The notes beneath the pieces are model-generated. The model searched no databases, had not been told where the DNA came from, and worked only from the letters and a program-made list of their open reading frames with translations. A stretch of 64,000 nucleotides of DNA, from IMG/VR virus record IMGVR_UViG_3300035126_000903, positions 1 to 64,000 of that record, one strand, 5' to 3'. Source of the DNA: a virus. Positions 18,433 through 35,360 of this stretch are shown here, one piece after another (the stretch's first letter is position 1; every line of letters starts with the position of its first letter). The position numbers were made by a program, and so were the translations under genes.

Positions 18433-18462
18433 GATGAGTTCATAAATAAGGTAGTTAGTAGC
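18433..18462 (-). repeat. cassette-end repeat, class 3
   Basis: Plus-strand GGCTGACG...GTTAGTAGC. The GTTAGTAGC at 18454-18462 matches the core inside the next gene at 18676-18684. Confidence 0.55.
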
Positions 18463-18464
18463 AA

Positions 18465-18737
18465 TTATTTTTTGCTACTGTTACACCAACAATGACCAGC
18501 GTGTGTTAAAGCAATTCCATCTCTAACATTACAGCTAATATATGTATGTCCTTTATATTCAAATTCGTTTAATTCTGTCACCCGTGTAAATATTCCGCTT
18601 TCAGTTCTTACTTCACCACCTTTTGATGTAGGTTTAGCTGTAATGTTTTCGTCTTCGCAACCGCAAAAAACAACAGCTACTAACAGCAAATAAGCAAAAG
18701 CAAAGGTGCGGTGGTAAATTGATGTTCTCGTTTTCAT
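18465..18737 (-). CDS. cassette gene: small lipoprotein
   Basis: 90 residues. Signal peptide with lipobox VFCGC (Cys near 28), then a short Cys/His-containing domain ending HAGHCWCNSSKK. The cassette core GTTAGTAGC (18676-18684) lies inside the signal peptide coding region, so the start and first half of the signal peptide come from the flanking site. Here the core is read in a different phase from most cassette genes. Confidence 0.7.
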   Translation of the reverse strand: MKTRTSIYHRTFAFAYLLLVAVVFCGCEDENITAKPTSKGGEVRTESGIFTRVTELNEFEYKGHTYISCNVRDGIALTHAGHCWCNSSKK

Positions 18738-18803
18738 ATTATGTTCTGTTTTTAAGTTAAAGTTTTCGTTTCTAAATCTTTGCCTTAGCTTATCTGCGAA
18801 CCG

Positions 18804-19001
18804 TTAGCGGAAATACCTTTTGTGCATCTCAACGCATCCACAGTTAATACAAGCGTGTAATTCCTGTTCAATCTCATCTTCACTCACAGAACTTGTAAGA
18901 TTAGGAGAATTACACTCATTACATACCCATTCAAAATCTCGTTTAGGTACGCCTGTGCGATATATGTCTTTTGGGTCGTGTTGATGGTCAGGTAGTTTCA
19001 T
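18804..19001 (-). CDS. cassette gene: zinc-ribbon-like protein
   Basis: 65 residues with paired cysteines (WVCNECNSP and ACINCGCVE), a likely zinc ribbon. A degenerate cassette core may be the GTGAGTGAA reading VSE. Promoterless, within the cassette string. Confidence 0.65.
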   Translation of the reverse strand: MKLPDHQHDPKDIYRTGVPKRDFEWVCNECNSPNLTSSVSEDEIEQELHACINCGCVEMHKRYFR

Positions 19002-19021
19002 AGGTTTGGGTATTTTATGTC

Positions 19022-19100
19022 AGGTTATAGGCTGACGCTGGGGGGCTTTTGGTAAGAGCAGAGGCTGACGATTTGTTCACGAATGAGCGAGTTATCGGCA
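19022..19100 (-). repeat. cassette-end repeat, class 3
   Basis: Plus strand GTTATAGGCTGACGCTGGGG...GCGAGTTATCGGCAA. Copies recur after the genes at 19884, 20520, 20850, 21156 and 21541. Confidence 0.6.
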
Positions 19101-19101
19101 A

Positions 19102-19344
19102 TTATGTGGCTTTCGGGTGTTCCCATTTTTCACGTCCGCATTTACATTTTGTGGCTGATGAAGTTTTATTGTCCGCTTCAAAAAAGTCACATAACAGTCC
19201 GCTTCGCCCACTAACATCGGCTTGTAGCAATTCTTGGTTCAGTTCTTCGAGTAACTCTTGGAAATTAGTTTCTCCTGTTAATTGAAAGTTTATGCCACAT
19301 TCAAATGCTCGTTTCATTTCATTGTATGAGTAATACATTTTCAT
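19102..19344 (-). CDS. cassette fusion gene (leader + Cys-rich tail)
   Basis: 80 residues from MKMYYSYNEMKRAFE at 19344. The first 46 residues (to QADVSG) come from the upstream site region. The core GTTAGTGGG (19207-19215) reads Val-Ser-Gly in frame. The tail carries KCKCGREKWEH, a possible metal site. Confidence 0.6.
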   Translation of the reverse strand: MKMYYSYNEMKRAFECGINFQLTGETNFQELLEELNQELLQADVSGRSGLLCDFFEADNKTSSATKCKCGREKWEHPKAT

Positions 19345-19376
19345 CTTCGTATCAAATTTAGTTGTTAATAATTCGC

Positions 19377-19577
19377 TTAAACGTAGGTTCGTGTTTCCGA
19401 ATCCCAAATCTCAGTCCATTTGAAATACTTCCAGCTATCCCTCCATCTAAGTTTAAACTTTTCTATGATTTTTGCTTCAAAACTTCTTGCCTCTTCCAAG
19501 GTGTCAAAGTCCTCCTGAAAATCATTCATCCTATCGGGATAATAGCAATCACCTGCAAATACTAAGAATCGTTTCAT
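19377..19577 (-). CDS. hypothetical protein, DFDTLEEA family
   Basis: 66 residues. MKRFLVFAGDCYYPDRMNDF then DFDTLEEARSFEAKI, a small beta-alpha protein also seen at 53493 (DFDTLEEAEDFARRA). Function unknown. Confidence 0.65.
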   Translation of the reverse strand: MKRFLVFAGDCYYPDRMNDFQEDFDTLEEARSFEAKIIEKFKLRWRDSWKYFKWTEIWDSETRTYV

Positions 19578-19828
19578 TATTGAGTGTTATTTGTGTTTGT
19601 ATCCAACAGGCGATTTTTTTCTGCATTTAACCAGTCTTTAGCCGACATACCGCTATTGGCAAAATTTTTTGAATTAAGCATATCCAATGCTATTTCAATT
19701 GCGTGTAATTGATACTTTTTATCAGCAATCAATCCATCTAAATACTCATAAAAAGCCATTTGAGCCTCATACTCTGCTTCTGCTTGTGCAGCGCATCCTG
19801 CTTCGTATTCCCATTGTTCTTGTGTCAT
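19577..19828 (-). CDS. hypothetical protein, acidic helical
   Basis: 83 residues, N-terminus rich in A, E and Q (EYEAGCAAQAEAEYEAQMAF), predicted helical. The segment NFANSGMS may be a mutated cassette core. Overlaps the next start by a few bases. Confidence 0.6.
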   Translation of the reverse strand: MTQEQWEYEAGCAAQAEAEYEAQMAFYEYLDGLIADKKYQLHAIEIALDMLNSKNFANSGMSAKDWLNAEKNRLLDTNTNNTQ

Positions 19829-19850
19829 TTTATTTAGGTTTTAAGGTTTG

Positions 19851-19881
19851 GTTGGGTTCACGAATGAGCGAGTTAGGGGCA
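19851..19881 (-). repeat. cassette-end repeat, class 3 (short)
   Basis: Plus strand TTCACGAATGAGCGAGTTAGGGG, directly after the exonuclease gene stop. Confidence 0.5.
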
Positions 19882-19883
19882 AC

Positions 19884-20459
<576 letters not shown>

Positions 20460-20474
20460 TTAAGGTTTGGTTGG

Positions 20475-20519
20475 TCAGTTTATAGGCTGACGATTTGTTC
20501 ACGAATGAGCGAGTTATAG
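20475..20519 (-). repeat. cassette-end repeat, class 3
   Basis: Plus strand GTCAGTTTATAGGCTGAC...GCGAGTTATAG, after the gene at 20520. Confidence 0.55.
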
Positions 20520-20732
20520 TTAATTTAAAAGACTATCAATATCAGCCGTTGGTAGTGGCTTCAAATCGTAACTTTCATTTCTAATTCCGCTTGCTTCCAA
20601 TCTATATAAGTTTCCGTCTTTGTCTTTCAATACTTTACCATCGTGTTCCCATTGGCAACCTTGAAAAACTATCGCTAACAACAAGACGGTAAAAGCAAGG
20701 GTTAATCGGTTAATTGAAAATTTCTGTTTCAT
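20520..20732 (-). CDS. cassette gene: small lipoprotein
   Basis: 70 residues. Signal peptide with lipobox VFQGC, then a short domain KVLKDKDGNLYRLE. The core CGCTAAC on the plus strand (20673-20679) lies inside the signal-peptide coding part (Leu-Leu-Ala), as in the lipoprotein at 18465. Confidence 0.7.
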   Translation of the reverse strand: MKQKFSINRLTLAFTVLLLAIVFQGCQWEHDGKVLKDKDGNLYRLEASGIRNESYDLKPLPTADIDSLLN

Positions 20733-20804
20733 GTGTATAGTTTTTAATTGTTTTCTTTATATGTTTTTTAAATGTGTATAGGTTTTGGGTAATTTGTGAC
20801 AGGT

Positions 20805-20860
20805 TATAGGCTGACGATTTGTTGTAGGAAAACTTCACAAATAAGCGAGTTATGTGCCAT
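20805..20860 (-). repeat. cassette-end repeat, class 3
   Basis: Plus strand GGTTATAGGCTGACG...ATAAGCGAGTTATGTGCCA. The end matches the core GTTATGTTGCC inside the gene to its right. Confidence 0.6.
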
Positions 20861-21062
20861 TATGCTTTATTTCTTTTCCACAGTTGGTGCAATACCAATC
20901 AGTTAGGTTTTCCATCGGGAATGGTCTGCGTTTATCACAAACGCACAACGTACCCTTCGGCAACATAACACCGTATAAAATCAATAGCTGCTTTCGCATT
21001 TCTATCAAGTCTATTTTTCCTAAGTGAAAGTTGTTCAATATTTCATCTATTTTCTTATCCAT
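20850..21062 (-). CDS. cassette fusion gene (leader + zinc-knuckle body)
   Basis: 70 residues. Leader MDKKIDEILNNFHLGKIDLI... ends LYGV, then the core GTTATGTTGCC (20959-20969) reads Val-Met-Leu in frame. The body carries CVCDKRR...WYCTNCGKE, a likely zinc site. The leader resembles that of the gene at 30343. Confidence 0.68.
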   Translation of the reverse strand: MDKKIDEILNNFHLGKIDLIEMRKQLLILYGVMLPKGTLCVCDKRRPFPMENLTDWYCTNCGKEIKHNGT

Positions 21063-21089
21063 ACGCTACTGCTTTTATACGTGGAACGT

Positions 21090-21165
21090 TATAGGCTGAC
21101 GCCGGGGGAGGTTTGGTAAGACCAGAGGCTGACGGTGGGTTCACGAATGAGCGAGTTAGTGGTAA
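21090..21165 (-). repeat. cassette-end repeat, class 3
   Basis: Plus strand GTTATAGGCTGACGCCGGGG...GCGAGTTAGTGGTAA. Confidence 0.6.
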
Positions 21166-21437
21166 TTATTATCAACCTCCCATTTATAAACCGCATTTTG
21201 ATAATCATTATATTCAGATGAACTGCACCCTCTTGGGTCACTTGTATCATAAAAATCTTCTAATTGCGGTTTAGACTTCCCTTTATAACTACCGCTAACA
21301 AGCGGTTGGCTCAATTTCTCAAGTTCAGTTACATAATCAATTAATTTGTAAAATTCATCAAGTGCCAACCCTTTTTGGTAGAAGTCAAGCTTGACGCCTC
21401 TCATCTGTGCTTTTAGGTTTTCAATTTTTGGTTTCAT
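21156..21437 (-). CDS. cassette fusion gene
   Basis: 93 residues. Helical leader up to SQPLVSGS, where the core GTTAGCGGTAG (21289-21299) reads Val-Ser-Gly-Ser. The cassette ends GTTAGTGGTAA at 21155, nearly the same word. Body acidic and aromatic; unknown function. Confidence 0.65.
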   Translation of the reverse strand: MKPKIENLKAQMRGVKLDFYQKGLALDEFYKLIDYVTELEKLSQPLVSGSYKGKSKPQLEDFYDTSDPRGCSSSEYNDYQNAVYKWEVDNNYH

Positions 21438-21457
21438 GGGTTTGGGGTTTGGTTGGT

Positions 21458-21537
21458 CAGCTTATAGGCTGACGCTGGGGGAGGTTTGGTAAGAGCGGAG
21501 GCTGACGATTTGTTCACGAATGAGCGAGTTAGGCGAA
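21458..21537 (-). repeat. cassette-end repeat, class 3
   Basis: Plus strand GTCAGCTTATAGGCTGAC...GCGAGTTAGGCGAAA. Minus reading starts GCCTAAC, an exact RYYYAAC. Confidence 0.6.
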
Positions 21538-21540
21538 ACA

Positions 21541-21753
21541 CTAAAAGACAAATGGCTCACCATCTATTTTTGCCTCACCGACAGAAATAATGCAGTCGCT
21601 TAGTTCAATATTTAAAAGTGGATTAGCCATTCTTATGTCGCTTCTTGCTCCAAATCTGTATTCTAACCACTCCACAATATCTACATCATCAGGGTTGCCG
21701 TTAAATTCTTTTGGCATTTCAATTTTTACATCTTTTAAATTTAGTTTTGACAT
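21541..21753 (-). CDS. hypothetical protein
   Basis: 70 residues, MSKLNLKDVKIEMPKEF, with one alpha-beta unit. First gene at the right end of this cassette string. Unrecognised. Confidence 0.6.
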   Translation of the reverse strand: MSKLNLKDVKIEMPKEFNGNPDDVDIVEWLEYRFGARSDIRMANPLLNIELSDCIISVGEAKIDGEPFVF

Positions 21754-21754
21754 T

Positions 21755-21949
21755 TTAATTAGTTTTTATAGTTTCAAACAACCGATACCTCCCACACGAA
21801 TCGGTCAGGGTCTTGACTTGAGGCCCGAATCCGTTGGAGCGGGATAGCACATACTCGCAGGCGTTACCCTTGGCCCGCACCTCAATCACCTTCCAAGGGC
21901 GGTCGTTGGTGCAAGCGGTCAGCAGGAGCAGAAGTAGGAATGGTCTCAT
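21755..21949 (-). CDS. small lipoprotein, GC-rich gene
   Basis: 64 residues. MRPFLLLLLLTAC lipobox then VIEVRAKGNACEYVL...CGRYRLFE. GC content is visibly higher than in neighbouring genes, a sign of recent transfer. Confidence 0.65.
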   Translation of the reverse strand: MRPFLLLLLLTACTNDRPWKVIEVRAKGNACEYVLSRSNGFGPQVKTLTDSCGRYRLFETIKTN

Positions 21950-21982
21950 AACTTAATTTTTTAGTTTTTTAATTATTACATA

Positions 21983-22014
21983 GTAAAGATAGGGATAAAA
22001 CCCCATATTTCCAA
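21983..22014 (-). promoter_or_regulatory. promoter, Bacteroidota type
   Basis: TTGGAAATATG then TATCTTTAC on the minus strand, before the lipoprotein gene and hence the cassette string. Confidence 0.7.
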
Positions 22015-22041
22015 GCTTTCTGTATTAAATTTAGGTTAAAT

Positions 22042-22311
22042 TTATTCATTTTCCATATCAATCCAATCCACATCACCATCTTCCATCATATTATTATCTT
22101 CCAATAGTGTCCAATACCGCTCTTTCCACCTATCTAATTCAACACCATCTATGAGTTGAACTTGTCCCGTTTTTTTGGCAAGATATGCAATACCCCAATT
22201 AAGTATTTCTTCGGCCTGGTTTAGTAAACCATCTTCCAACATTACCAATACCCGTTTATAATTTTCGGTTATGGTATCTAATTTTTTTGGTTTTCTTCCT
22301 CGCTTTTTCAT
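22042..22311 (-). CDS. hypothetical protein with AT-hook-like start
   Basis: 89 residues. N-terminal KKRGRKPKK resembles an AT-hook, which binds the minor groove of AT-rich DNA. The rest is helical and acidic. Confidence 0.62.
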   Translation of the reverse strand: MKKRGRKPKKLDTITENYKRVLVMLEDGLLNQAEEILNWGIAYLAKKTGQVQLIDGVELDRWKERYWTLLEDNNMMEDGDVDWIDMENE

Positions 22312-22323
22312 ATGTATAAAATT

Positions 22324-22542
22324 TTATCGGTATAAAGTAACAATTGACCCAAAATTAGAGTCAAATACCCTAATCAAATTTTCGTAATCACCACTCATCA
22401 TTTCGTTTACGATTTCTTTGGAATTAAATCCCAATTGTTTGGAAAGATTTTGAGCAAGACCAATGAGATAAAATGCATTTCCCTGCGGCCCTGTTAAATC
22501 AACTTCAATAGCTGAATTTTTTACTTTTTGCTTAATAGCCAT
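22324..22542 (-). CDS. hypothetical phage protein
   Basis: 72 residues from MAIKQKVKNSAIEV at 22542, behind its own promoter. Contains VDLTGPQGNAFYLIGLAQ, a segment seen in large-phage proteins of unknown role. Confidence 0.65.
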   Translation of the reverse strand: MAIKQKVKNSAIEVDLTGPQGNAFYLIGLAQNLSKQLGFNSKEIVNEMMSGDYENLIRVFDSNFGSIVTLYR

Positions 22543-22575
22543 AACTTTTATTTTTAGTTTTTTAATTATTACATA

Positions 22576-22607
22576 GTAAAGATAGGTATAAAACCCCACT
22601 TTTCCAA
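22576..22607 (-). promoter_or_regulatory. promoter, Bacteroidota type
   Basis: TTGGAAAAGTG then TATCTTTAC, 35 nt before the gene at 22324. Confidence 0.7.
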
Positions 22608-22628
22608 GCTTTCTGTATTAAATTTAGG

Positions 22629-22853
22629 TTAAATTTTATGCTTTCCAAAGGTGTAATAATCTTGAGCCTCATCATCGGCACTCATTTTCATTTCATCATC
22701 AATCCTATCACTATATTTTATCTCATTAAAGATAACGGCTATCTTGTTCTTATCTTCTTGTGTGGCATGCCCACTATCTTCAAAAATAATAAGTAACTCA
22801 CAAGCACTATTTAATAATCGTTTTAAGGTTTCGCTGGTCGTTTCGCTGGTCAT
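22629..22853 (-). CDS. hypothetical protein with shared C-terminal tail
   Basis: 74 residues, mostly helical. The last 17 residues (SADDEAQDYYTFGKHKI) also end the unrelated DUF4116-like protein at 44098. Confidence 0.65.
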   Translation of the reverse strand: MTSETTSETLKRLLNSACELLIIFEDSGHATQEDKNKIAVIFNEIKYSDRIDDEMKMSADDEAQDYYTFGKHKI

Positions 22854-22895
22854 CGTCTGTTGGTTTATTGGTTGAACAAAAGTCTTTGATGGTAG

Positions 22896-23390
22896 TTATG
22901 GTATTAGTTTGTATTTACGTCCGTTGTGTTCAATGATTTCGGGGGGGCGGTTGTCAATAATTGCACCAACTGAATCCTCAAAGTAGATGACATCGCCATT
23001 TGAATCAAATTCAGATTTAAACCAATATCCACTTGAATCTTCACCATAGAAACGATAGTCATTTTTGTCCATAATTTCAAGGTTGCCATTGGCCTCAAAG
23101 TCCCAGTTCAGCCATTGGCCGATTGTTTGTCCGTCTTTCATGGTTAGGGTATTAGTTGATATTTTTTGCCGTTGTGTTCGATGATTTGAGGGGATGCGGT
23201 TGTCAACAATATTACCGCCTGAATTTTTAAAGTAGATAACATCGCCATTTGAATCAAATTCGGATTTAAACCAATATCCTTTTGAAGTTTCATGGTATAT
23301 ATCGTCGCCATTCTTGTCTTTAATTTTAAGGCTGCCATTGGTCTTGAAATTCCAGTTCAGCCATTGGCCGAGTGTTTGTCCGTCTTTCAT
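22896..23390 (-). CDS. fused tandem duplicate, MKDGQT-family repeat protein
   Basis: 164 residues from MKDGQTLGQWLNW at 23390. Two copies of a unit with MKDGQTxGQWLNWxF and GYWFKSEFDSNGDVIYF. In the first copy the reading frame shifts near 23190-23200; the other frame continues to the same ending as copy two (IIEHNGKKYQLIP). A one-base change thus fused two tandem genes. Confidence 0.7.
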   Translation of the reverse strand: MKDGQTLGQWLNWNFKTNGSLKIKDKNGDDIYHETSKGYWFKSEFDSNGDVIYFKNSGGNIVDNRIPSNHRTQRQKISTNTLTMKDGQTIGQWLNWDFEANGNLEIMDKNDYRFYGEDSSGYWFKSEFDSNGDVIYFEDSVGAIIDNRPPEIIEHNGRKYKLIP

Positions 23391-23394
23391 AGGT

Positions 23395-23718
23395 TTAGTG
23401 TTTAGTTTCTTCAATTAGTTCTCCGTCTTTCCAATGACGGGTTTTGGTAATGTTTCCCTGTTCATCAAATTCCTCCTCAATTCCATCCGCCTTACCTTCT
23501 TTGTATGGGGTTCTCCAATGGATTTTTCCGTTTTCATAGAACATCTCCTCAATTCCATCCTCCTTACCTCCTTTGTATGAGGTTCTCAAATGGATGTTTC
23601 CGTTTTCATAGAACCACTCCCAAATACCTTCTTCTTGCTCTTTTGAGTTTAGTTGTCCTTTGACCCATATATTTCCGTTGGGGTAATATTCAATGTAGGG
23701 TGTGAGTTCGTTGGTCAT
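23395..23718 (-). CDS. MORN-variant repeat protein
   Basis: 107 residues from MTNELTPYIEYYPNG at 23718 with the CTAAACCT leader. Near-identical to the gene at 3-326. Confidence 0.78.
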   Translation of the reverse strand: MTNELTPYIEYYPNGNIWVKGQLNSKEQEEGIWEWFYENGNIHLRTSYKGGKEDGIEEMFYENGKIHWRTPYKEGKADGIEEEFDEQGNITKTRHWKDGELIEETKH

Positions 23719-23749
23719 AGGTTTAGTGTTTAGATTGTTATGTGCCATT

Positions 23750-23947
23750 TTAGTGAACACAATTCCGAAGATTCCACTCTTGAAGGTCAATGTACTTATC
23801 ATAGGTACACTCTTGACCACTTTCAATCTCATAAATTTGATTATCAAAAGCGTCTATTTTATCTTGTTTTACAATCCATTCTTTATACTCGTCAAGAGTG
23901 TTGAAGCCAAACATTTGACCTTTCTGATTATTTACTACTATTATCAT
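23750..23947 (-). CDS. hypothetical protein
   Basis: 65 residues, MIIVVNNQKGQMFGFNTLDE..., an alpha-beta protein with aromatic C-terminus. Unrecognised. Confidence 0.6.
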   Translation of the reverse strand: MIIVVNNQKGQMFGFNTLDEYKEWIVKQDKIDAFDNQIYEIESGQECTYDKYIDLQEWNLRNCVH

Positions 23948-23967
23948 AATTTTTGAATTAATTTGGT

Positions 23968-24093
23968 TTATTGGTTGAACAAAAGTGCGTAAATGAATCT
24001 GCCGAAGAAAATTACACTAAGCACTACTGCTAACGTTGTAAATCCATACTCAAGTATAGTTACAACTAAATGGTTATTGGTTTTTGGTTTCAT
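23968..24093 (-). CDS. single-span membrane peptide
   Basis: 41 residues: MKPKTNNHLVVTILEYG, then one hydrophobic helix and FNQ. Phage small membrane protein. Confidence 0.55.
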   Translation of the reverse strand: MKPKTNNHLVVTILEYGFTTLAVVLSVIFFGRFIYALLFNQ

Positions 24094-24098
24094 AACTT

Positions 24099-24653
24099 TT
24101 ATTTAGAAGCGGATTGAATTATACTAAATGCTTTACTAACCACTTTTTGGTCAGATACATATTTTACAGTATCATTGAATTCCCTACCCACATTTACCAC
24201 CTCATTCACCACCCATTCAACTTTACCAAATGGAGCCCGATTATCAACAAACACATACTTAACCGAAGCTTCCAACACCATACCCGTCAAACCACAAACC
24301 GAACCTGAAGTTTCATAACTCTCATAGATATCATGCATACCATTGAATGTACCATACTCCCAAAGGTGGGCAAATTTTTCTACCTCATAAGCAATTTGTG
24401 AATCAACGGGAGCACCCATTTTAGTGTAAAGATTAACCCGAAGAGAATTACCACCAGAGAAAGAGTCCGATTTTACCGAACACATAACCCCATTATAATT
24501 CATTTTAACAAACTGCTTTACCAATGAACCTGCGATTGGTGCATTGATATGAACATATTTTACGCCGGAATTTGACCCGTAGGTTTTAGTACGGAGGGCT
24601 GTGGTGGGAACTTCAAAGTTCTGACCATTAATTTGGATTACCATTTTTTTCAT
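24099..24653 (-). CDS. hypothetical protein
   Basis: 184 residues. N-terminal MVIQINGQNFEVPTTALRT is a short beta domain; the rest mixes beta strands and one helix. Own promoter at 24679. Function unknown. Confidence 0.7.
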   Translation of the reverse strand: MKKMVIQINGQNFEVPTTALRTKTYGSNSGVKYVHINAPIAGSLVKQFVKMNYNGVMCSVKSDSFSGGNSLRVNLYTKMGAPVDSQIAYEVEKFAHLWEYGTFNGMHDIYESYETSGSVCGLTGMVLEASVKYVFVDNRAPFGKVEWVVNEVVNVGREFNDTVKYVSDQKVVSKAFSIIQSASK

Positions 24654-29178: not shown

Positions 29179-29179
29179 A

Positions 29180-29359: not shown

Positions 29360-29384
29360 ACTGTTTGTTTTTTTAACTTACATA

Positions 29385-29416: not shown

Positions 29417-29426
29417 GCTTTCAATA

Positions 29427-29642
29427 TTAAATTTGCGTTAAGTTTTTCTCAATAATGAGACGAACCCGTTCCCTATCAACGGAATCAAATTCAATGTCGC
29501 TTAATGGTATGCTTTCCAAATACTCATTACAGGCGGCAATAATCCCCTTTTTTGTAGTAAGTGGGTAAATACCATTACGCAACTCATAAAAAGTTATACA
29601 ATATTTGTAAAACTCTTTGATTAAAACTGAATATTTTTTCAT
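29427..29642 (-). CDS. hypothetical protein
   Basis: 71 residues; ends IEKNLTQI, the same repeat-encoded C-terminus as the gene at 5843. Unrecognised helical protein. Confidence 0.62.
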   Translation of the reverse strand: MKKYSVLIKEFYKYCITFYELRNGIYPLTTKKGIIAACNEYLESIPLSDIEFDSVDRERVRLIIEKNLTQI

Positions 29643-29660
29643 ATCTCTTTTTGTTACATA

Positions 29661-29692
29661 ATAAAGATACTACAAAAACCCCATATTTCCAA
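29661..29692 (-). promoter_or_regulatory. promoter, Bacteroidota type
   Basis: TTGGAAATATG then TATCTTTAT on the minus strand. Confidence 0.65.
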
Positions 29693-29724
29693 GCTTTTTC
29701 CCCAAAAGTTATCCACATTTTACA

Positions 29725-29751
29725 AAAAAAAAGTGTCCAATTTAGTGGACA
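29725..29751 (-). terminator. intrinsic terminator
   Basis: TGTCCA-CTAAAT-TGGACA followed by a T9 run on the minus strand, a duplicate of that at 25892. Confidence 0.8.
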
Positions 29752-29838
29752 GTTCTTATTGACCTTGGGTTTGCAAATCTATAATCCCCAAAGCCTCACT
29801 TATAACGGAAACAATTCGATATGGAATTATTTTATTTA

Positions 29839-30234
29839 TTATCTACTCAAAAATGATAGTTGAACTTCTTTTAAAAGTTTCCTACCCAATTTTTTATCAT
29901 TACGAAAGGTATATTTGTTTTTTACACTCATAAGTGTATTAGCCCTCACCAACTTTTCGATTTCAGTTTCGTTATAGCCAATACTTTCCCATGTCGCAAT
30001 TAATTTACTTTCAACCCTCTGAAGTTGTTCACTAATATCATTTTCGATATGAGATTGGTTTATCTTAAAAAAGATATTACCACGTCTTATTTTATCCCGA
30101 AAAGAATTACCCATCCCAAATATACAAAAGTTTTGGTAAATCTGCCTACGTTGGTTATAATCCATACCTACCATTTCTTTTTCCATAATTTCTAATGTTT
30201 CTTCGAAACTGTACCTTTTATTATTTGCACACAT
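29839..30234 (-). CDS. hypothetical helical protein
   Basis: 131 residues, MCANNKRYSFEETLEIMEKEM..., all-helical and basic at the end. Promoter at 30274. Unrecognised. Confidence 0.65.
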   Translation of the reverse strand: MCANNKRYSFEETLEIMEKEMVGMDYNQRRQIYQNFCIFGMGNSFRDKIRRGNIFFKINQSHIENDISEQLQRVESKLIATWESIGYNETEIEKLVRANTLMSVKNKYTFRNDKKLGRKLLKEVQLSFLSR

Positions 30235-30273
30235 AATTTTATTGTTTAATATTTTTTATTTAGTTAGTTATTA

Positions 30274-30305
30274 CAAATATACGAAGTAAATTTTGTTTTT
30301 CCAAA
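30274..30305 (-). promoter_or_regulatory. promoter, Bacteroidota type
   Basis: TTTG, 20 nt, TATATTTG on the minus strand; exact consensus, 40 nt before the gene at 29839. Confidence 0.75.
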
Positions 30306-30342
30306 TCCTTATAGAAAAATTTACTACTCATATTTGAGGACG

Positions 30343-30747
30343 TTAGTCCCAATTCATAGGAAGACAGTCATGAGAAGGTACATCATAGAATTTTTCACCT
30401 GTTTCAATATTTTGTAGTGTATAGTATCGTGTACCTATCCTATAAGGTGCATAAGTTGACAAAATTTTATGAACCTTATGCCTATATCGTATTAAATCAT
30501 CACTAACATCAGATATATGTAATTTTTCATTACTATTATCCAAGTTTTGTTCTAAATTTTTATCTTCTTCTGTATCACCATCTACCGTTCCTTGTAAAAA
30601 GGATAAGTATTTTATCTTTTCAATTTCTTTATCAGTATAAAACCTACCACTAACACCAAATAAACCCAATAAAAGGTTTTGTGCTTGGTTTTCAGTTATC
30701 AGTTCTAACCTAAGTTTTTCTGCTATTTCTAAAATTTGTTCTTTCAT
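30343..30747 (-). CDS. cassette fusion gene with two in-frame cores
   Basis: 134 residues from MKEQILEIAEKLRL at 30747. Leader ends LLLGLFGVSG, where the core GTTAGTGGTAG reads Val-Ser-Gly. A second leader-like stretch (EDKNLEQNLDNSNEKL then HISDVSDD) lies at mid-protein with a second core GTTAGTGATG. Two cassettes thus appear joined into one reading frame. The C-terminal body is basic and tyrosine-rich. Confidence 0.65.
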   Translation of the reverse strand: MKEQILEIAEKLRLELITENQAQNLLLGLFGVSGRFYTDKEIEKIKYLSFLQGTVDGDTEEDKNLEQNLDNSNEKLHISDVSDDLIRYRHKVHKILSTYAPYRIGTRYYTLQNIETGEKFYDVPSHDCLPMNWD

Positions 30748-30785
30748 ATCTTTTACTGTGTTTATTTGTGAACCGTTAGCGGTAA
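30648..30785 (-). repeat. attC-like site enclosing a leader ORF
   Basis: Plus-strand CTAACACCAAATAAAC at the left pairs with GTTTATTTGTG...GTTAGC at the right, with extra unpaired bases on one side as in integron attC sites. The 100-nt centre holds the ATG and leader of the gene at 30343. Confidence 0.65.
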
Positions 30786-30787
30786 TA

Positions 30788-30970
30788 CTAATAACCCAAC
30801 AAATACATCTTTCTACCCCAAGCTTTTTTTGCTTCTTGTTCATTACCACCATAAACAATCTGATACCAATCCACCCACATTTGAGGCTGGGCAACTGGAT
30901 TTGGTTCAGATGAAGCACTACCGCTAACAGCAGGTTGCTTCAATGGCTTAGTTTCTTTCTTTTTTGACAT
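30788..30970 (-). CDS. cassette fusion gene
   Basis: 60 residues. Basic leader MSKKKETKPLKQPA, then the core GTTAGCGGTAG (30918-30928) reads Val-Ser-Gly-Ser. The cassette ends with the same word (GTTAGCGGTAA, 30775). The body is Trp/Tyr-rich. Confidence 0.65.
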   Translation of the reverse strand: MSKKKETKPLKQPAVSGSASSEPNPVAQPQMWVDWYQIVYGGNEQEAKKAWGRKMYLLGY

Positions 30971-31002
30971 TTTATCATTTATTTAAAGTTTGTAATCCTA
31001 CA

Positions 31003-31067
31003 CAAATACAACATACTGGTGGAATATAAGTGGATGTAAACTTCACAAATAAACGAGTTAGTTGCAA
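31003..31067 (-). repeat. cassette-end repeat, class 2
   Basis: Plus strand ACACAAATACAACATACTGGT...GTAAACTTCACAAATAAACGAGTTA. Further copies at 33117, 34053, 34381 and 56500. Within it ATACTGGTGG-type hairpins are short. Confidence 0.6.
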
Positions 31068-31321
31068 TTTTTCTTACACCACATAATCTTGCTGCCTTTT
31101 CGCAAATGAACTAATCGTAATTCATAACCTTTATCCATCATTTGTTGCATTTCTTCTAATTCTTTAAGTTCTACATCATTGAAAGAGCGTTCATTTACTC
31201 CATCCTTAATCTTAATGTAGTTCTTAGCAAAATCATAAAAACTGCAACTAACATCGTGTAGTGCTTGTTTAATTTCATCACTAATTTCTTCATCTGTTTT
31301 TTTAACATTTTTCTTTTTCAT
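31058..31321 (-). CDS. cassette fusion gene
   Basis: 87 residues. Leader MKKKNVKKTDEEISDEIK to ALHDVS; the core GTTAGTTGCAG (31242-31252) reads Val-Ser-Cys. The stop codon TAA lies within the terminal core word (AAC TAA C), so the site supplies start and stop. Cassette end repeats GTTAGTTGCAA. Confidence 0.68.
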   Translation of the reverse strand: MKKKNVKKTDEEISDEIKQALHDVSCSFYDFAKNYIKIKDGVNERSFNDVELKELEEMQQMMDKGYELRLVHLRKGSKIMWCKKNCN

Positions 31322-31364
31322 ATTCTATATTTTTTAATTTGTAAAACAATAATTTAACTAAACC

Positions 31365-31414
31365 TAACAAATGATAAACAACATTAAAACGATTGTTTAT
31401 CATCGGACGTTATG
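31365..31414 (-). repeat. attC-like site, perfect 11-bp arm
   Basis: CTAACAA, ATGATAAACAA, 11 nt, TTGTTTATCAT, CGGACGTTATG. On the minus strand the far end is GTTAGGT, an exact GTTRRRY. A near-identical copy lies at 56939-56990. Confidence 0.78.
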
Positions 31415-31420
31415 TGTAAT

Positions 31421-31636
31421 TTAATCAACTTTGTATTTCCTACCACCTAAGTGATGTTCGTGTATAAACTTTGATTTACATCTTGAACATTCATACTTAC
31501 TATGATAATTACTTTTCCAAATCAAAGTTTTCTTATGTATTCCAATTAAACACAATAAACTACACATAACATCAGATATATGTAATTTTTCATTACTCTT
31601 ATCCAAGTTTTGTTCTAAATTTTTATATTTTTCCAT
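31421..31636 (-). CDS. cassette fusion gene with zinc-ribbon body
   Basis: 71 residues. Leader MEKYKNLEQNLDKSNEKL-HISDV is shared with the genes at 30343 and 32043. The core GTTATGTGTAG (31561-31570) reads Val-Met-Cys. The body has CSLLC...YECSRCKSKF, a zinc ribbon. Cassette end GTTATGTGTAA matches. Confidence 0.7.
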   Translation of the reverse strand: MEKYKNLEQNLDKSNEKLHISDVMCSLLCLIGIHKKTLIWKSNYHSKYECSRCKSKFIHEHHLGGRKYKVD

Positions 31637-31640
31637 CTTA

Positions 31641-31922
31641 TTAATTTTTTACCTTGTGTTCTATATATATTTCTCTGTACATCTTATATTGTTTCCCGTA
31701 AAAATCAACCAAGAAAAAATTCCAATTATCATTACCATTTCTACCTATTAACATTGCGTGTATATTTTGTAGTTTATAATACATCATAGCCACCTTACCA
31801 TAATTGTCGGGATTATTTTTTAATTCATCAATCTCGTCCAATCTTTTTTCTAATTCAGTTTTAGGTATAATCAACCTCATAAACTTTAAAAAATAATCCC
31901 TAATTTTTTCTTTTGTTTTCAT
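31641..31922 (-). CDS. cassette gene, hypothetical
   Basis: 93 residues, MKTKEKIRDYFLKFMRL..., helix then beta strands. The whole ORF lies inside its cassette (start after GTTATAT at 31944). Confidence 0.65.
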   Translation of the reverse strand: MKTKEKIRDYFLKFMRLIIPKTELEKRLDEIDELKNNPDNYGKVAMMYYKLQNIHAMLIGRNGNDNWNFFLVDFYGKQYKMYREIYIEHKVKN

Positions 31923-31943
31923 AATTCAAAAATTAATACTAAA

Positions 31944-32036
31944 ATATAACAAGGTATATGTGAAATACCTCATAAAGTTTCTACTAATTATTTAAGTTCT
32001 GTGGTAAGGTACTTCACATATACCCAACCGTTAGTG
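31944..32036 (-). repeat. attC-like site
   Basis: ATAACAAGGTATATGTGAAATACCT pairs with AGGTACTTCACATATACC, then CAACCGTTAG. One mismatch in 18 bp plus an asymmetric spacer, as in attC sites. Confidence 0.78.
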
Positions 32037-32042
32037 GTAATT

Positions 32043-32306
32043 TTAATCTTTGTATCTTCTCCATACCGCAGAACCATCAATACCATCTTTCCACATTCCT
32101 TCGTCATTTTCCTTAACAGTTTTGAAGAATTCTTTAACTAAATCCAACACTTCTTTTTTATCCATTTTTACACCTTCGTAATATACATCATCTCTTTGAT
32201 TTCTGAAGAATTCTTCAAAACGATTAAAACTACCACTAACATCAGATATATGTAATTTTTTATTACTTTTATCTAAGTTTTGTTCTAATTTTTTATCTTC
32301 TTCCAT
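32043..32306 (-). CDS. cassette fusion gene
   Basis: 87 residues. Leader MEEDKKLEQNLDKSNKKL-HISDVSG is encoded inside the attC-like site. The core GTTAGTGGTAG (32231-32240) reads Val-Ser-Gly-Ser and the cassette ends with GTTAGTGGTAA. Body acidic/aromatic, unknown. Confidence 0.7.
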   Translation of the reverse strand: MEEDKKLEQNLDKSNKKLHISDVSGSFNRFEEFFRNQRDDVYYEGVKMDKKEVLDLVKEFFKTVKENDEGMWKDGIDGSAVWRRYKD

Positions 32307-32354
32307 TTTGTTGAATTTTATGTTAAAACTACATATATCTGAGTATCGTTATAA
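32236..32354 (-). repeat. attC-like site enclosing a start codon
   Basis: CTAACATCAGATATATGTA at the left pairs with TACATATATCTGA...GTTATA at the right with five unpaired bases on one side. The ATG of the gene at 32043 and 20 codons lie in the loop. Confidence 0.72.
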
Positions 32355-32367
32355 ACAATAAAAAACC

Positions 32368-32727
32368 TTAAAGTGGTGGTTCTAAATTGTCTTTTATCTT
32401 ATCATAAGATTCTTTAATCGCTTCGGATAATACTTGTTCGATAGGTTTTTTACTATTTATAACAACGGATATATGAAATAAAAAATTAATAGATTCTACA
32501 AACTTTCTAATTTCTTCTTCTGATTTACATTCTCGTTGAACAACACAAAATTCACCCCTAACTACTTTACAAGTTTGGGTTTCTATGTTGTAATAAAGTA
32601 TTGGTAATCTACAAGGGTTTCCACATATCTCTGTATCTTCTTCACCTAAAACCCAAACTTGTTTTCCAGTGAATACATCAAGTATCTCACTAAAACCTAA
32701 TTCTGTTAAATTTTGTGTTGTTATCAT
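32368..32727 (-). CDS. cassette fusion gene with long leader
   Basis: 119 residues. The first 88 residues (beta-rich, with CGNPCRLP) lie in the centre of a 300-nt attC-like site. The core GTTATAAATAG (32453-32463) then reads Val-Ile-Asn and the cassette ends GTTATAAACAA. Only the last 30 residues belong to the cassette. Confidence 0.65.
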   Translation of the reverse strand: MITTQNLTELGFSEILDVFTGKQVWVLGEEDTEICGNPCRLPILYYNIETQTCKVVRGEFCVVQRECKSEEEIRKFVESINFLFHISVVINSKKPIEQVLSEAIKESYDKIKDNLEPPL

Positions 32728-32775
32728 CGTTCTGATTATTAATTTTTTACATTCATATATCCGCAGCCGTTATGT
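32453..32775 (-). repeat. long attC-like site with coding centre
   Basis: GGATATATGAA (32467-32477) pairs with TTCATATATCC (32752-32762), flanked by TATAAC and GTTATG. The 270-nt centre is coding. Confidence 0.62.
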
Positions 32776-32784
32776 GTAATTTAT

Positions 32785-33036
32785 TCAAAAATAATCACGT
32801 TTAAGTTGTTCCTCTTTAATTAGAATCTCCCTTTGTTCTTTCATTTGACCAATTACTTCATCGAAATTTTTACTCATTTGTCTTTCAAACTGATTTTCAT
32901 TTTGGTAATCTAATGACACTTCGTGTTTAACATCAAATCCGTTTTCTCGTAAAAATTTCTTCAATAAGAAAATTAAACGTGATTTTCCACTCATTGCTCT
33001 ACCAGATACGGTAATAATTAATTTTTCCTTTTCCAT
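32785..33036 (-). CDS. P-loop NTPase-like small protein
   Basis: 83 residues. ITVSGRAMSGKSRLIFLLKKFL is a Walker A motif with following helix. Too short for a full kinase, but a Walker A alone is clear. Driven by the promoter at 33065; the only cassette-region gene here with its own promoter. Confidence 0.65.
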   Translation of the reverse strand: MEKEKLIITVSGRAMSGKSRLIFLLKKFLRENGFDVKHEVSLDYQNENQFERQMSKNFDEVIGQMKEQREILIKEEQLKRDYF

Positions 33037-33064
33037 TTTATATTTGTTTTGAGTTTAATATAAT

Positions 33065-33096
33065 TAAATATAAGAAATAAATTTTGATTTTCCAAA
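33065..33096 (-). promoter_or_regulatory. promoter, Bacteroidota type
   Basis: TTTGGAAAATC, 20 nt, TATATTTAA on the minus strand. Confidence 0.7.
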
Positions 33097-33116
33097 TTTT
33101 TTATCAGGTTAACTTA

Positions 33117-33182
33117 AACCTACACAAATACAACATACTGGTGGGATATAAGTGGGTGTAAACTTCACAAATAAACGAGTTA
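33117..33182 (-). repeat. cassette-end repeat, class 2
   Basis: Same repeat as at 31003, ending GAGTTATAAGTAA. Confidence 0.6.
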
Positions 33183-33191
33183 TAAGTAATA

Positions 33192-33341
33192 TTATTTTTT
33201 AATTGGTTTCTTCTTGTTCTTTTTAGGTTTTTTACATTCATCAAGTTTAGTCCCAGCCACATATTCAGCCATTTCGGGTTCATTATTAAGAAACCAATTT
33301 ATTCGGTTTATTTTTTGTTCTTGTGTTAATTCTATATTCAT
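33192..33341 (-). CDS. cassette gene, small basic-tailed protein
   Basis: 49 residues from MNIELTQEQKINRI at 33341; ends in a lysine-rich tail (KKPKKNKKKPIKK), possibly nucleic-acid binding. Confidence 0.6.
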   Translation of the reverse strand: MNIELTQEQKINRINWFLNNEPEMAEYVAGTKLDECKKPKKNKKKPIKK

Positions 33342-33380
33342 TTTTATTAAATTTATTTTGTTAAAAAAATAATACATACA

Positions 33381-33437
33381 CATAACAAAGTGTATAAGTA
33401 ATGTGGCTAATAAAGTTTATCTGTAAGTTATGTGTAA
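33381..33437 (-). repeat. attC-like core pair CACATAAC/GTTATGTG
   Basis: CACATAAC and GTTATGTG lie 40 nt apart around AGTGTATAAGTAATGTGG...; inner arms weak. Confidence 0.45.
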
Positions 33438-33439
33438 TG

Positions 33440-33739
33440 TTACTCACCATTATACTTAAATTCAAACAACTTTGGTTTTAATGTATTACCAATTGGTTGA
33501 ACGATTGATAAATCACTTGATGTTTCTCCGTGAATAACTTTCATTAAACCAGGTATTCCATAATTCTCAAATGTTATTTCATACAAATCGCCAAAAAATG
33601 ATGTATCATTATTACTAATTGTATGTGTTACTTCTATAACATACTTTTTTGTAGTTATCAATGATTGTTGTAAATTAATAAACCAAAGTTGTGTTCCACT
33701 TGGTATCACATACTTATCTCCAATTTTTACTTTTTTCAT
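33440..33739 (-). CDS. cassette gene, beta-rich hypothetical
   Basis: 99 residues, MKKVKIGDKYVIPSGTQLWF..., beta-barrel-like. KYVIEVTH may contain a core (GTTATAG). Unknown function. Confidence 0.62.
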   Translation of the reverse strand: MKKVKIGDKYVIPSGTQLWFINLQQSLITTKKYVIEVTHTISNNDTSFFGDLYEITFENYGIPGLMKVIHGETSSDLSIVQPIGNTLKPKLFEFKYNGE

Positions 33740-33830
33740 ATTTCATTTCTTTAATTTTAACTTTTTAAAATTTGTGAGTTCATTACTCCATCAATATCCA
33801 AGAAAATAACTTTTTGCACAGGTTTTGGAT

Positions 33831-34025
33831 TTAACTAATGGTTCTTTCAAAAACAATGAGATAACCTCCTCTTAGATGACTGCCACCACCTGTTGATATA
33901 TGTCGTGCTGTTACAGATACAATCAACCAACCATCTTCCAAGATTTTATCTATTTTGTCTTGAACATCTTTGTAAGATTCATCATCAGGAGTCACCAATA
34001 CTTTTTGTTCTTTAAGTGCTATCAT
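33831..34025 (-). CDS. cassette gene, DUF4177-like
   Basis: 64 residues. ILEDGWLIVSVTA...GGGSHLRGGYLIVFERTI matches the DUF4177 pattern (GWELVSV...Y.I.F.R). Function unknown. Confidence 0.6.
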   Translation of the reverse strand: MIALKEQKVLVTPDDESYKDVQDKIDKILEDGWLIVSVTARHISTGGGSHLRGGYLIVFERTIS

Positions 34026-34052
34026 ATTATTTTTAATTTAATCGTTCAAAGA

Positions 34053-34132
34053 TATGACCTACAAACTCACCCCTCTGATACTGGTAGAGTATAAGTGGGT
34101 GTAAACTTCACAAATAAGCGAGTTAGCAGCAA
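34053..34132 (-). repeat. cassette-end repeat, class 2
   Basis: ATACTGGTAGAGTATAAGTGGGTGTAAACTTCACAAATAAGCGAGTTAGCAGCAA, with an altered left half. Confidence 0.6.
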
Positions 34133-34134
34133 TG

Positions 34135-34338
34135 CTATGACTGCAAGCCAACACCATATCGTTTAAACCCATATTTCGTAAGTGTATAGTATTCTCCGTG
34201 TTCATTCACCCATTGATTAGGTCTTACTTCAATTAATCCTATTAGCCTTGCAAGTGCATCATATAAAGCACTGCTGCTAACATCGTATTGCTGAACATTG
34301 CCAGCTTCATCGGTAATTTCAACTTTTACTTTCATATC
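34135..34338 (-). CDS. cassette fusion gene
   Basis: 67 residues from MKVKVEITDEAGNVQQ at 34338 (an upstream in-frame ATG is at 34371). The core GTTAGCAGCAG (34271-34281) reads Val-Ser-Ser in YDVSSS. The cassette ends GTTAGCAGCAA at 34122, an 11-base near-identity. Confidence 0.65.
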   Translation of the reverse strand, partial: DMKVKVEITDEAGNVQQYDVSSSALYDALARLIGLIEVRPNQWVNEHGEYYTLTKYGFKRYGVGLQS

Positions 34339-34380
34339 AATATTTATTTTTATTAAACATTTGTCTTTCAATTTAACTTA

Positions 34381-34452
34381 ATACTACACAAATACAACAT
34401 ACTGGTAGCGTATAAGTGGGTGCAAACTTCACAAATAAGCGAGTTAGCAGCC
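34381..34452 (-). repeat. cassette-end repeat, class 2
   Basis: Same repeat, ending GAGTTAGCAGCCA. Confidence 0.6.
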
Positions 34453-34650
34453 ATAATCAGAACAGACCGTTTCAAAGTCGTTCATAACAGCATCTAACAA
34501 TTCCCATTTATCAGGATTACAACTTGTTGAACCTACCAGCAAAAATTGAATTGCTATATCGTGTTCAGTTGTATGTTGACCTTTTTCGGCAAATCTTAAT
34601 CTTTCTGATTTAAGTGCCTCAATCAATTTTTGTTTTCTTTCTTCGTTCAT
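34444..34650 (-). CDS. cassette gene, hypothetical
   Basis: 68 residues from MNEERKQKLIEALKSERL at 34650. The whole ORF lies in its cassette, which runs from GTTAGCAGCCG (34680-34689) to GTTAGCAGCCA (34443-34452). Confidence 0.65.
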   Translation of the reverse strand: MNEERKQKLIEALKSERLRFAEKGQHTTEHDIAIQFLLVGSTSCNPDKWELLDAVMNDFETVCSDYGC

Positions 34651-34679
34651 ATTTTTAGTATTAAATTTTACAAAATTAC

Positions 34680-34813
34680 GGCTGCTAACACACGTTTGGC
34701 GAAAGTGGCGGTTCAGTGCTCCGCAGACACATTTGTGGTTAATCAAACATTGGTTCTCCGCATCGGCTTTTGTGGTGAAAATCGCCACCTTCGCCGAGCG
34801 TGGGAACATTATG
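34680..34813 (-). repeat. GC-rich attC-like site
   Basis: CTAACACACGTTTGGCGAAAG TGGCGG at the left pairs with CGCCACCTTCGCCGAGCG...ATTATG at the right, unpaired extra bases on one side. About 130 nt and much richer in GC than surroundings, so imported. Confidence 0.75.
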
Positions 34814-34820
34814 TGCAAGG

Positions 34821-35021
34821 CTACAATTCGTACTTTGAATAAAAGGCAACCTCACCATCATTTACCCATTGGTCAATTAAGTCGCTAACATCATTAATGT
34901 ATTGTTCATTTTTACCTGCTAATTTAGTTGCTTTTAGATTTTCCCAAAATTCACCACTAAATTCATCCATATTATTCATGTAGTGAACAACAATTTCAAG
35001 TTTCTCTTTTAAGTTTTCCAT
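34821..35021 (-). CDS. cassette fusion gene
   Basis: 66 residues. Acidic helical leader to QYINDVS; core GTTAGCGAC (34881-34889) reads Val-Ser-Asp. The end word does not match the core, so this may be a hybrid after recombination. Confidence 0.62.
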   Translation of the reverse strand: MENLKEKLEIVVHYMNNMDEFSGEFWENLKATKLAGKNEQYINDVSDLIDQWVNDGEVAFYSKYEL

Positions 35022-35097
35022 TTCGTATTTAAATTAAATTTTGTGGTTAATGAAAAGTCAGTGCATTTAAGCCTCCACTGACAGCAAGCGGCAAAAC

Positions 35098-35108
35098 GTT
35101 AGTGATAA
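35098..35108 (-). repeat. cassette end core GTTAGTGATAA
   Basis: Matches the core GTTAGTGATAG inside the gene at 35115. Left of it GTCAGTG...CACTGAC forms a hairpin. Confidence 0.5.
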
Positions 35109-35114
35109 TAAAAA

Positions 35115-35360
35115 TTAAATCAATCCTTGTTTCTTTAACATATTTACGATTGCCTTTGCTGCTGCCTTAACTGAATCAGGGTCTGTTTCCATATCACCCT
35201 CTTTCATAGAATAAGGCACATATCGTAAATATACTTCACTATCAATTATATCTTTAATCATATCAATAAGTTCTTGCTCATTTTTACTATCACTAACATC
35301 AGATATATTCAAGTTTTCTTGATGTTCATTGAGACTTTGTATGTGTTTTAAATCTTTCAT
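35115..35360 (-). CDS. cassette fusion gene
   Basis: 81 residues. Leader MKDLKHIQSLNEHQENL-NISDVSD, a variant of the KLHISDVS leaders. Core GTTAGTGATAG (35287-35297) reads Val-Ser-Asp. Body acidic helical. Confidence 0.65.
   Translation of the reverse strand: MKDLKHIQSLNEHQENLNISDVSDSKNEQELIDMIKDIIDSEVYLRYVPYSMKEGDMETDPDSVKAAAKAIVNMLKKQGLI

Follow-up and report, generated by a model that had tools for sequence, protein, structure and literature searches.

Clusters of attC sites lacking integron integrases (CALINs) are known from phages: 17 of bacterial type were published from virulent phages, with cassettes as accessory genes (Qi et al. 2023, PMC9892861), and IntI1 recombined five of six tested phage CALIN sites (PMC9892861). 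A term search of that paper's text returned no mention of start codons or cores inside open reading frames (ORFs). Frames that cross an integron site have been described for ORF-11 in attI1, an 11-aa peptide that normally ends just past the core and acts by translational coupling, and for the gcuF1-blaOXA-28 fusion, a single clinical case (PMC8876359). The 'atypical' integrons of Treponema have a flipped intI that is read towards attI (PMC3607928), and in CTXphi-type Xer-exploiting phages a Xer-like enzyme acts on a folded phage site, an arrangement that has been likened to cassettes (PMC4792948). IntI itself is thought to need the insert I2, which reads bulged attC bases; whether site or insert came first is a chicken-and-egg problem, and a viral origin of integrons has been openly speculated upon (PMC4792948). 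Here we describe an integron-like cassette array at 18-36 kb of a 64,000-nucleotide stretch of viral DNA (the window), which is part of the 135,671-bp virus record IMGVR_UViG_3300035126_000903, and compare it with arrays in related viral stretches or loci that we retrieved and labeled with L-numbers (e.g. L013, L235).

We put a probability of roughly 0.8 on the reading that the array consists of integron-like cassettes which are spread among phages and moved at the core on the stop side of each gene by a phage Xer-like recombinase. The system works like an integron, yet it is not an IntI integron in the strict sense, since it departs from one in integrase and in gene orientation.

Read on the minus strand, the array is made up of bodies of 110-250 bp that start with GTTA plus five to six further letters and end with the reverse complement of that word. 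These inverted cores of 8-10 bp (GTTANNNNN.../...NNNNNTAAC) bound the bodies, and their variable letters covary, differing from cassette to cassette and agreeing inside each. Positions 18,001-36,000 hold 10 core pairs of at least 9 bp and 8 perfect pairs of at least 10 bp, versus means of 0.9 (maximum 3) and 0.23 (maximum 2) in 60 dinucleotide shuffles of the same region; the first position beyond the core pairing is almost always G at the start versus T at the end. The original prediction, made from the letters of the window, had proposed an integron-like array in a phage with at least 12 pairs sharing the same 9-11-base word. The array is borne out and the pairing is real, but three of the pairs are weaker than claimed (20969/20849 with 7 bp, 32463/32348 with 8 bp and 21299/21155 with a mismatch at position 6).

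A second pair of arms accompanies the cores. The L'' arm begins 5 nt past TAAC and the L' arm finishes 1-2 nt ahead of GTTA, as in site 32348->32240 (TAAC-gatac-TCAGATATATGTA ... TACATATATCTGA-t-GTTA), and the same register recurs at 30775->30654, 18807->18684, 34835->34689 and 32769->32463, the last with arms of 27 nt each that lie ~250 nt apart. In many cassettes the start codon and leader sit in the loop between L'' and L'; this holds for 32348->32240, 30775->30654, 18807->18684 and 32769->32463, in which the L' arm and core lie within the ORF, while 34835->34689 is a classical hairpin. Cognate pairing of L'' and L' in the window outscores every partner permutation (p=5e-5). At 147 sites of the recombinase loci described below, the mean L''/L' score is 29.9 for cognate and 12.9 for non-cognate arms, a score of at least 20 is reached by 93% of sites versus 6.5% of mismatched partners, and among relatives L'' begins 5 nt past TAAC in 107 of 137 sites. 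Core pair and L''/L' pair together form the attC-type hairpin of integrons, which would be used in exchange as a folded single strand. With at least two such sites and no integrase, the window array is by definition a CALIN; an Rfam scan of the window returned tRNAs only and no attC-like family.

The position of exchange was read from homologous bodies in changed contexts. Downstream homology stops 0-5 nt past the stop-side core in nearly all of them, and upstream homology mostly extends 44-160 nt, often 111-122 nt, which is the whole attC. The near-identical phages L235 and L233 differ by one cassette of 797 nt, which is extra in L233 and sits exactly at TAAC/TATCATATATC (a slash marks the junction here and below): L235 reads GGAGCATAAC/TATCATATATC, the insert in L233 ends TTGTACATAAC/TATCATATATC, the flanks are identical at 118/118 and 2454/2500 positions, and the inserted unit is L''-hairpin-L'-core-body-core. 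In the window lineage, L038 shares attC, leader and body past core 30775 and has a different upstream body. From the flank comparison, the L235/L233 insertion and the boundaries seen against L073 and L038, we infer that the stop-side core is the place of exchange and that a leader is part of the same cassette as its body. Judged from these alignments, attC, leader and body appear to travel as one cassette, with leader replacement as the rarer event.

These boundaries also bear on the view that the inverted repeats are RNA elements, such as terminators or translational control hairpins, that have nothing to do with recombination. Hairpins around start codons could affect translation, but the core letters covary per cassette, homology between contigs breaks at the cores and units are cleanly gained at the recombinase-side platform, which leaves this explanation barely credible.

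The original prediction had placed exchange at the core inside the ORF: the upstream site would give start codon and leader, the cassette would give body and stop, and every move would be a protein fusion. Leaders do join many bodies. Searches with leader patterns retrieved 41, 16 and 23 viral stretches, in which a leader ending PASCQTA/V is fused in frame to more than 12 distinct bodies and one ending KLHISD/V to more than 20; among 254 pairs with a homologous leader (at least 55 nt) and a different body, homology stopping at the core, the phase is equal in 248. In four pairs with homologous bodies the leaders differ, one of them being the window body at 32240 versus that of L282. In-ORF exchange nevertheless predicts that the leader is lost while body and downstream attC are kept, and the opposite was seen: leader and attC usually move with the body, and homology ends at the stop-side core. 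Whether leader and body are inherited together had been named beforehand as a check, and the pairs mostly are, against a fusion per move. The sole pair with body and downstream attC in common, L301/L287, was rejected, its cassette having been read on the wrong strand, and both the L233/L235 insertion and the fixed platform described below locate the junction on the stop side. That the in-ORF core is the one exchanged is thus very unlikely, and as the main route it is largely refuted; the in-frame recombination of leaders with many bodies stands, and what falls is the idea that the leader is a property of the upstream site. The sequence comparisons suggest instead that attC/leader modules have been joined in frame to many bodies over longer times.

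The claim that GTT always falls on a codon boundary within the ORF holds for the 12 genes for which it was made, where it gives V-S, V-M or V-I. It does not extend to the signal-peptide genes 18465-18737 and 20520-20732, which read the core as xxG-TTA (LLLVAV, LLLAIV). Both phases occur in relatives (56 GTT, 19 xxG-TTA, 10 other), and a GTTAG core read in the third phase gives a stop (TAG). We therefore rejected a single universal phase in favor of two common ones. Nor is a core inside the gene a general rule: the likely ORF of 34689/34443 begins past the core, as do 131 ORFs of relatives versus 85 that contain it. Body mismatches fall at third codon positions (147 versus 71 and 51 at the others), with the bias present from directly past the core, which argues that the bodies are coding; they are probably small proteins. 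The cassettes of the window are as follows, R' and R'' denoting the core at the start and end of a body.

18454..18803, minus strand: cassette of L'' (18798-18779), signal-peptide leader MKTRTSIYHRTFAFAYLL, L' arm, R' 18684, body and R'' ending 18454; 9-bp R'/R'' pair, 20-nt L''/L' match GCAGATAAGC..AGGCAAAG, ORF 18465-18737 with R' in phase xxG-TTA; leader region 91-92% in L250/L263, both recombinase loci.
19091..19344, minus strand: leader-body ORF MKMYYSYNE...LLQAD/VSGRSG..., R' 19215; R'' ending 19091 degenerate with an imperfect core match, then constant flank TCGCTCATTCGTGAA.
20513..20732, minus strand: signal-peptide leader MKQKFSINRLTLAFTVL/LLAIVF, R' 20679 in phase xxG-TTA, R'' 20513 degenerate; leader and core 92% identical in L007/L037/L190, body different.
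20849..21062, minus strand: leader MDKKIDEILNNF...LLILYG/V and body, R' 20969, R'' ending 20849, 7-bp match.
21155..21437, minus strand: leader MKPKIENLK...LSQPL/VSGS and body, R' 21299, R'' ending 21155, imperfect match.
30343..30774, minus strand: double leader-body fusion (ORF 30343-30753, ATG ~30747) with attC 30774-30655, leader MKEQILEIAEKLRLELITENQAQNLLLGLFG in the loop, R' 30654 (VSG) and first body, then leader EEDKNLEQNLDNSNEKLHISD, R' 30507 (VSD) and second body; 19-nt L''/L' match; attC, leader and first body 95.9% in L038, upstream body different, boundary at R'' 30775.
30775..30970, minus strand: leader MSKKKETKPLKQPA/VSGS and body, R' 30928, R'' ending 30775 (10 bp); leader 94.7% in L160/L179, body different.
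31057..31321, minus strand: leader MKKKNVKKTDEEISDEIKQALHD/VSCS and body, R' 31252, R'' ending 31057 (10 bp); preceded by a classical attC hairpin (31408-31310) that is widespread in recombinase-bearing phages.
31409..31636, minus strand: leader MEKYKNLEQNLDKSNEKLHISD/VMCS and body, R' 31570, R'' ending 31409 (10 bp).
31943..32029, minus strand: classical attC hairpin without leader, L'' GGTTGGGTATATGTGAAGTACC and L' GGTATTTCACATATACCTT, next core GTTATATTTTAG; 92-99% identical in many recombinase-phage arrays.
32030..32347, minus strand: cassette of L'' TCAGATATATGTA, leader MEEDKKLEQNLDKSNKKLHISD, L' TACATATATCTGA, R' 32240, body and R'' ending 32030; 18-nt L''/L' match; body 99.5% identical in L282 (array beside recombinase), leader and downstream flank different.
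32348..32768, minus strand: cassette whose attC loop is an 88-aa N-terminal domain (MITTQNLTELGF...), R' 32463 (V-I-N-S), R'' ending 32348; highest L''/L' score (44); attC and domain 95.8% in L168/L286, homology stopping at the core, and 96.7% in L176 with the same body.
34122..34335, minus strand: leader MKVKVEITDEAGNVQQYD/VSSS and body, R' 34281, R'' ending 34122 (10 bp); leader ~80% in L019 and in L195/L253, bodies different.
34443..34835, minus strand: classical attC hairpin 34834-34690 with cassette, R' 34689 and R'' 34443 (10-bp cores), 23-nt L''/L' match; the likely ORF (MNEERKQ...) begins past the core.
34821..35021, minus strand: leader MENLKEKLE...EQYIND/VSD and body, R' 34889, R'' degenerate.
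35098..35360, minus strand: leader MKDLKHIQSLNEHQENLNISD/VSDS and body, R' 35297, R'' ending 35098 (10 bp); leader 84-91% in L230, L258 and L267 (all recombinase loci), other bodies.
56557..56959, minus strand: outlying cassette, R' 56943 and R'' 56557, then constant flank TTACTTATTTGTGAAG, likely ORF beginning past the core; the related phage L073 is homologous past R'' and differs in body, with the junction at TAAC/.

In ORF 30343-30753, the second leader (LEQNLDNSNEKLHISD) follows the first body with its own start codon unused, as if an end core had been lost and read through. A Pfam search of ten leader-body proteins gave no match above cut-off, and the product of the 30343 gene had no protein match among phage isolates, whose sole match at the DNA level was an RNase H-like gene.

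The relatives encode a candidate enzyme. A tyrosine recombinase was present in 14 of 50 records from the leader-pattern searches, usually 0.6-4 kb from the leader, and seven of these proteins used as queries led to 116 viral contigs with a ~266-aa Xer-like tyrosine recombinase. The gene lies mostly at the end of the array, beside a fixed A/T-rich platform, with chains of up to 15 core pairs upstream of it versus 0-2 in the downstream control. Of the 69 loci that have a core pair, 49 carry the platform (TATTATATATAAACAAGT and variants) immediately past their last core, 32-81 nt upstream of where the recombinase match begins. Such an attI-like platform was found in relatives only, and one cassette, that of L233, was gained there. 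We had also considered that leader families mark attI-like first positions, an idea dropped on finding leader-type cassettes anywhere in arrays and the fixed platform at the recombinase end. Window cassettes recur in recombinase-bearing arrays, as the body shared with L282 illustrates, and the recombinase of the relatives would be the enzyme that performs the exchange.

The recombinase conserves the catalytic motifs GLR..E, H.LRH, GH and Y and consists of core-binding and catalytic domains only, lacking an arm-binding domain, as is typical of Xer/XerA-like enzymes. It scores below every NCBIfam cut-off, with XerA nearest; the integron-integrase model TIGR02249 gives 148-158 bits against a cut-off of 265, in a match split in two, and the IntI-specific insert I2 (~35 residues) is absent from the alignment. 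In a tree, the phage recombinases group with bacterial XerA-like proteins (98/96), apart from the IntI clade (100/100), and the best PDB profile and first fold-search match are XerA as well (4a8e, 5hxy; NF040815; structure model with a predicted local distance difference test (pLDDT) score of 82.7 and a predicted template modeling (pTM) score of 0.60). A divergent recombinase, 44% identical to that of L148, lies at 8160-8951 of L160 directly past a leader-type array, which implies that the association spans a deep family. An array was found in 0 of 6 inspected regions around bacterial relatives of the enzyme.

Directly past the end cores at 19091, 19872, 20513, 20849, 21155, 21528, 31057, 33179, 34122 and 34443 the window carries a constant flank, TCGYTYATTYGTGAA, with a variant, TACCTTATTTATGAA, at the end core 18454. 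In phages without a recombinase it behaves as a repeated, second landing platform would. Constant TCGCTYATTYGTGAA as a normal L'' with partner L' was dropped as a candidate after 64 sites yielded no clear partner and one or two weak ones.

The array might also consist of ordinary host integron cassettes that were captured by phages as CALINs and are moved by host IntI. Phage CALINs are known, with IntI1 active on most tested sites (PMC9892861), and the window phage itself lacks a recombinase. The phage hosts are presumed to be Bacteroidota, and of 395 genomes from the Prevotella phylum 105 have an IntI that scores above the curated cut-off, a frequency higher than we had expected; long core pairs like those of the phages are present in the host arrays too. 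In these host integrons, however, genes are mostly divergent from IntI (19 versus 6) and typically begin ~20-40 nt past the core, with no core inside an ORF among the chained cassettes, whereas at the recombinase loci the longest ORF lies on the recombinase strand and points at the recombinase in 225 of 232 cassettes (225:7). The window's commonest site flank, TAACTCGYTYATTYGTGAA, occurs in at least 80 viral stretches versus 12 stretches in 84,980 prokaryotic species genomes, and a dedicated non-IntI recombinase adjoins the phage arrays. A host origin of this kind is unlikely, and we favor phage cassettes moved by a phage enzyme.

In coding orientation, a cassette would then run from the L'' arm through the 5' untranslated region, often with start codon and leader, to the L' arm, GTTA core, body and ...TAAC core. 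Strand exchange is predicted at the downstream core TAA/C, which is often the stop codon, next to the fixed attI-like platform TAAC/TATTATATAT..., and by the phage-encoded Xer-like tyrosine recombinase. Because the genes point at the platform, it is their 5' end that attC overlaps, and the letters of L' and core would be translated as an N-terminal leader. Leader and body would normally move together, and the joining of a new body to an attC poses the same problem as cassette origin does in ordinary integrons.

Several findings weigh against movement by a phage recombinase at the stop-side core. L235/L233 is the only clean insertion pair. The flank comparison is partly based on loci fetched by leader patterns, and its unbiased subset is small (6 leader-kept, 0 leader-lost, the one wrong-strand case set aside). 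Many TAAC/TCGYTYATTYGTGAA sites of the window have no matching L' arm, and part of the array may be decayed or use another platform. Leader mismatches have no codon-position bias (43/34/44), and the leader may be mainly a translation start. Finally, the search for IntI suggested by the original prediction returned no match to TIGR02249 in the window record, and PF00589 detected no recombinase in a near-identical 161-kb record (L013/L040, with a terminase match) or in 49 related records; recombination in the window phage has presumably been lost or is supplied in trans.

The record has phage-type genes for DNA polymerase, ribonucleotide reductase, RNA ligases and thymidylate synthase, and 29 tRNAs called by ARAGORN. 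Two tRNA-like stretches of 104 nt (16389-16492 and 37096-37199) are 99% identical and lie 20.7 kb apart; further Rfam tRNA matches of 97-123 nt occur at 11378-11500, 12601-12697, 16243-16342, 37433-37535 and 37591-37688. These long matches, including the 104-nt pair, have enlarged middle regions, were not called by ARAGORN and stand on both sides of the cassettes. A ~96-nt repeat (minus strand GCTTGGAAATATGGGGTTTTATCCCTATCTTTACTATGTAA) found upstream of many small genes, at 18222-18317, 21948-22043, 24644-24739, 29350-29445, 35543-35638 and elsewhere, resembles a phage promoter of the Bacteroidetes TAnnTTTG type. Small genes at 22896-25100 and 27193-28380 contain repeated MORN-like or tandemly duplicated blocks (e.g. 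IEEMFYENGKIHWRTPYKEGK), with three ~250-nt copies in the latter region. L001:7252-8874 encodes a phage GroEL-type chaperonin (phrog_5725, E 9e-152). Among L005-L084 (e.g. L006/L052, L011/L078), gene-sized indels distinguish related phages and have short shared intergenic sequences at their edges, such as AACCTTAAGCCTATGAAAC. We set them aside as cassette events, their edges being shared intergenic repeats and not cores; in these constant-flank phages they are a second mode of gene turnover, separate from the cores.

We lean slightly towards a broader proposal, that phages own a complete cassette-capturing system with an I2-less Xer-like recombinase, attC-like hairpins and inverted genes whose site provides 5' region, start codon and leader, be it a relative of ancestral I2-less integrons or an independent invention. 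If so, phages could be a source of integron-type cassettes. Arrays of attC-like sites served by a Xer-like enzyme without I2 make the question of whether site or insert came first directly testable. Phages would also gain a recombination-based route to exchange small accessory genes singly, and with a protein-coding recombination site new genes joined in frame would arrive with a ready start codon. The literature searched, which did not cover subscription papers and preprints, held no account that we could find of such a phage recombinase together with inverted attC cassettes that encode leaders.

By profile and by fold, the phage enzyme comes closest to the XerA-type simple tyrosine recombinases; XerA itself serves to resolve chromosome dimers at dif sites, and we know of no cassette arrays for it. 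CTXphi-type phages rely on host XerCD and integrate as whole phages, whereas here the enzyme is phage-encoded and the sites bound single genes. The published phage CALINs likewise are attC clusters in phages without IntI whose cassettes are accessory genes, but their sites are of bacterial type and a dedicated phage recombinase of the present family is absent there (PMC9892861). As in ORF-11 and gcuF1-blaOXA-28, a frame starts in an integron site and crosses the crossover core into the next cassette; here, it is built into attC, spans the whole body and recurs in many cassettes. The arrays share with Treponema integrons an unusual direction of integrase relative to cassette genes, except that here it is the cassette genes that are flipped, the recombinase being in its usual position. 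With integrons in general they have in common the attC-type R''/L''/L'/R' hairpin, arrays of small genes, exchange at a conserved AAC core next to a platform, and, at one end, a recombinase gene whose transcription leads away from the array and whose start codon is preceded by an attI-like platform. They differ in that the recombinase is not IntI (below cut-off and in a separate clade, with no I2-bearing IntI in the window record or among the relatives' enzymes) and in that the arrays are phage-borne, with cassette genes that face the recombinase instead of pointing away from attI, and with an attC that does not lie at the 3' end of the gene but precedes the body, travels with it, overlaps the gene's 5' end and is predicted to be translated.

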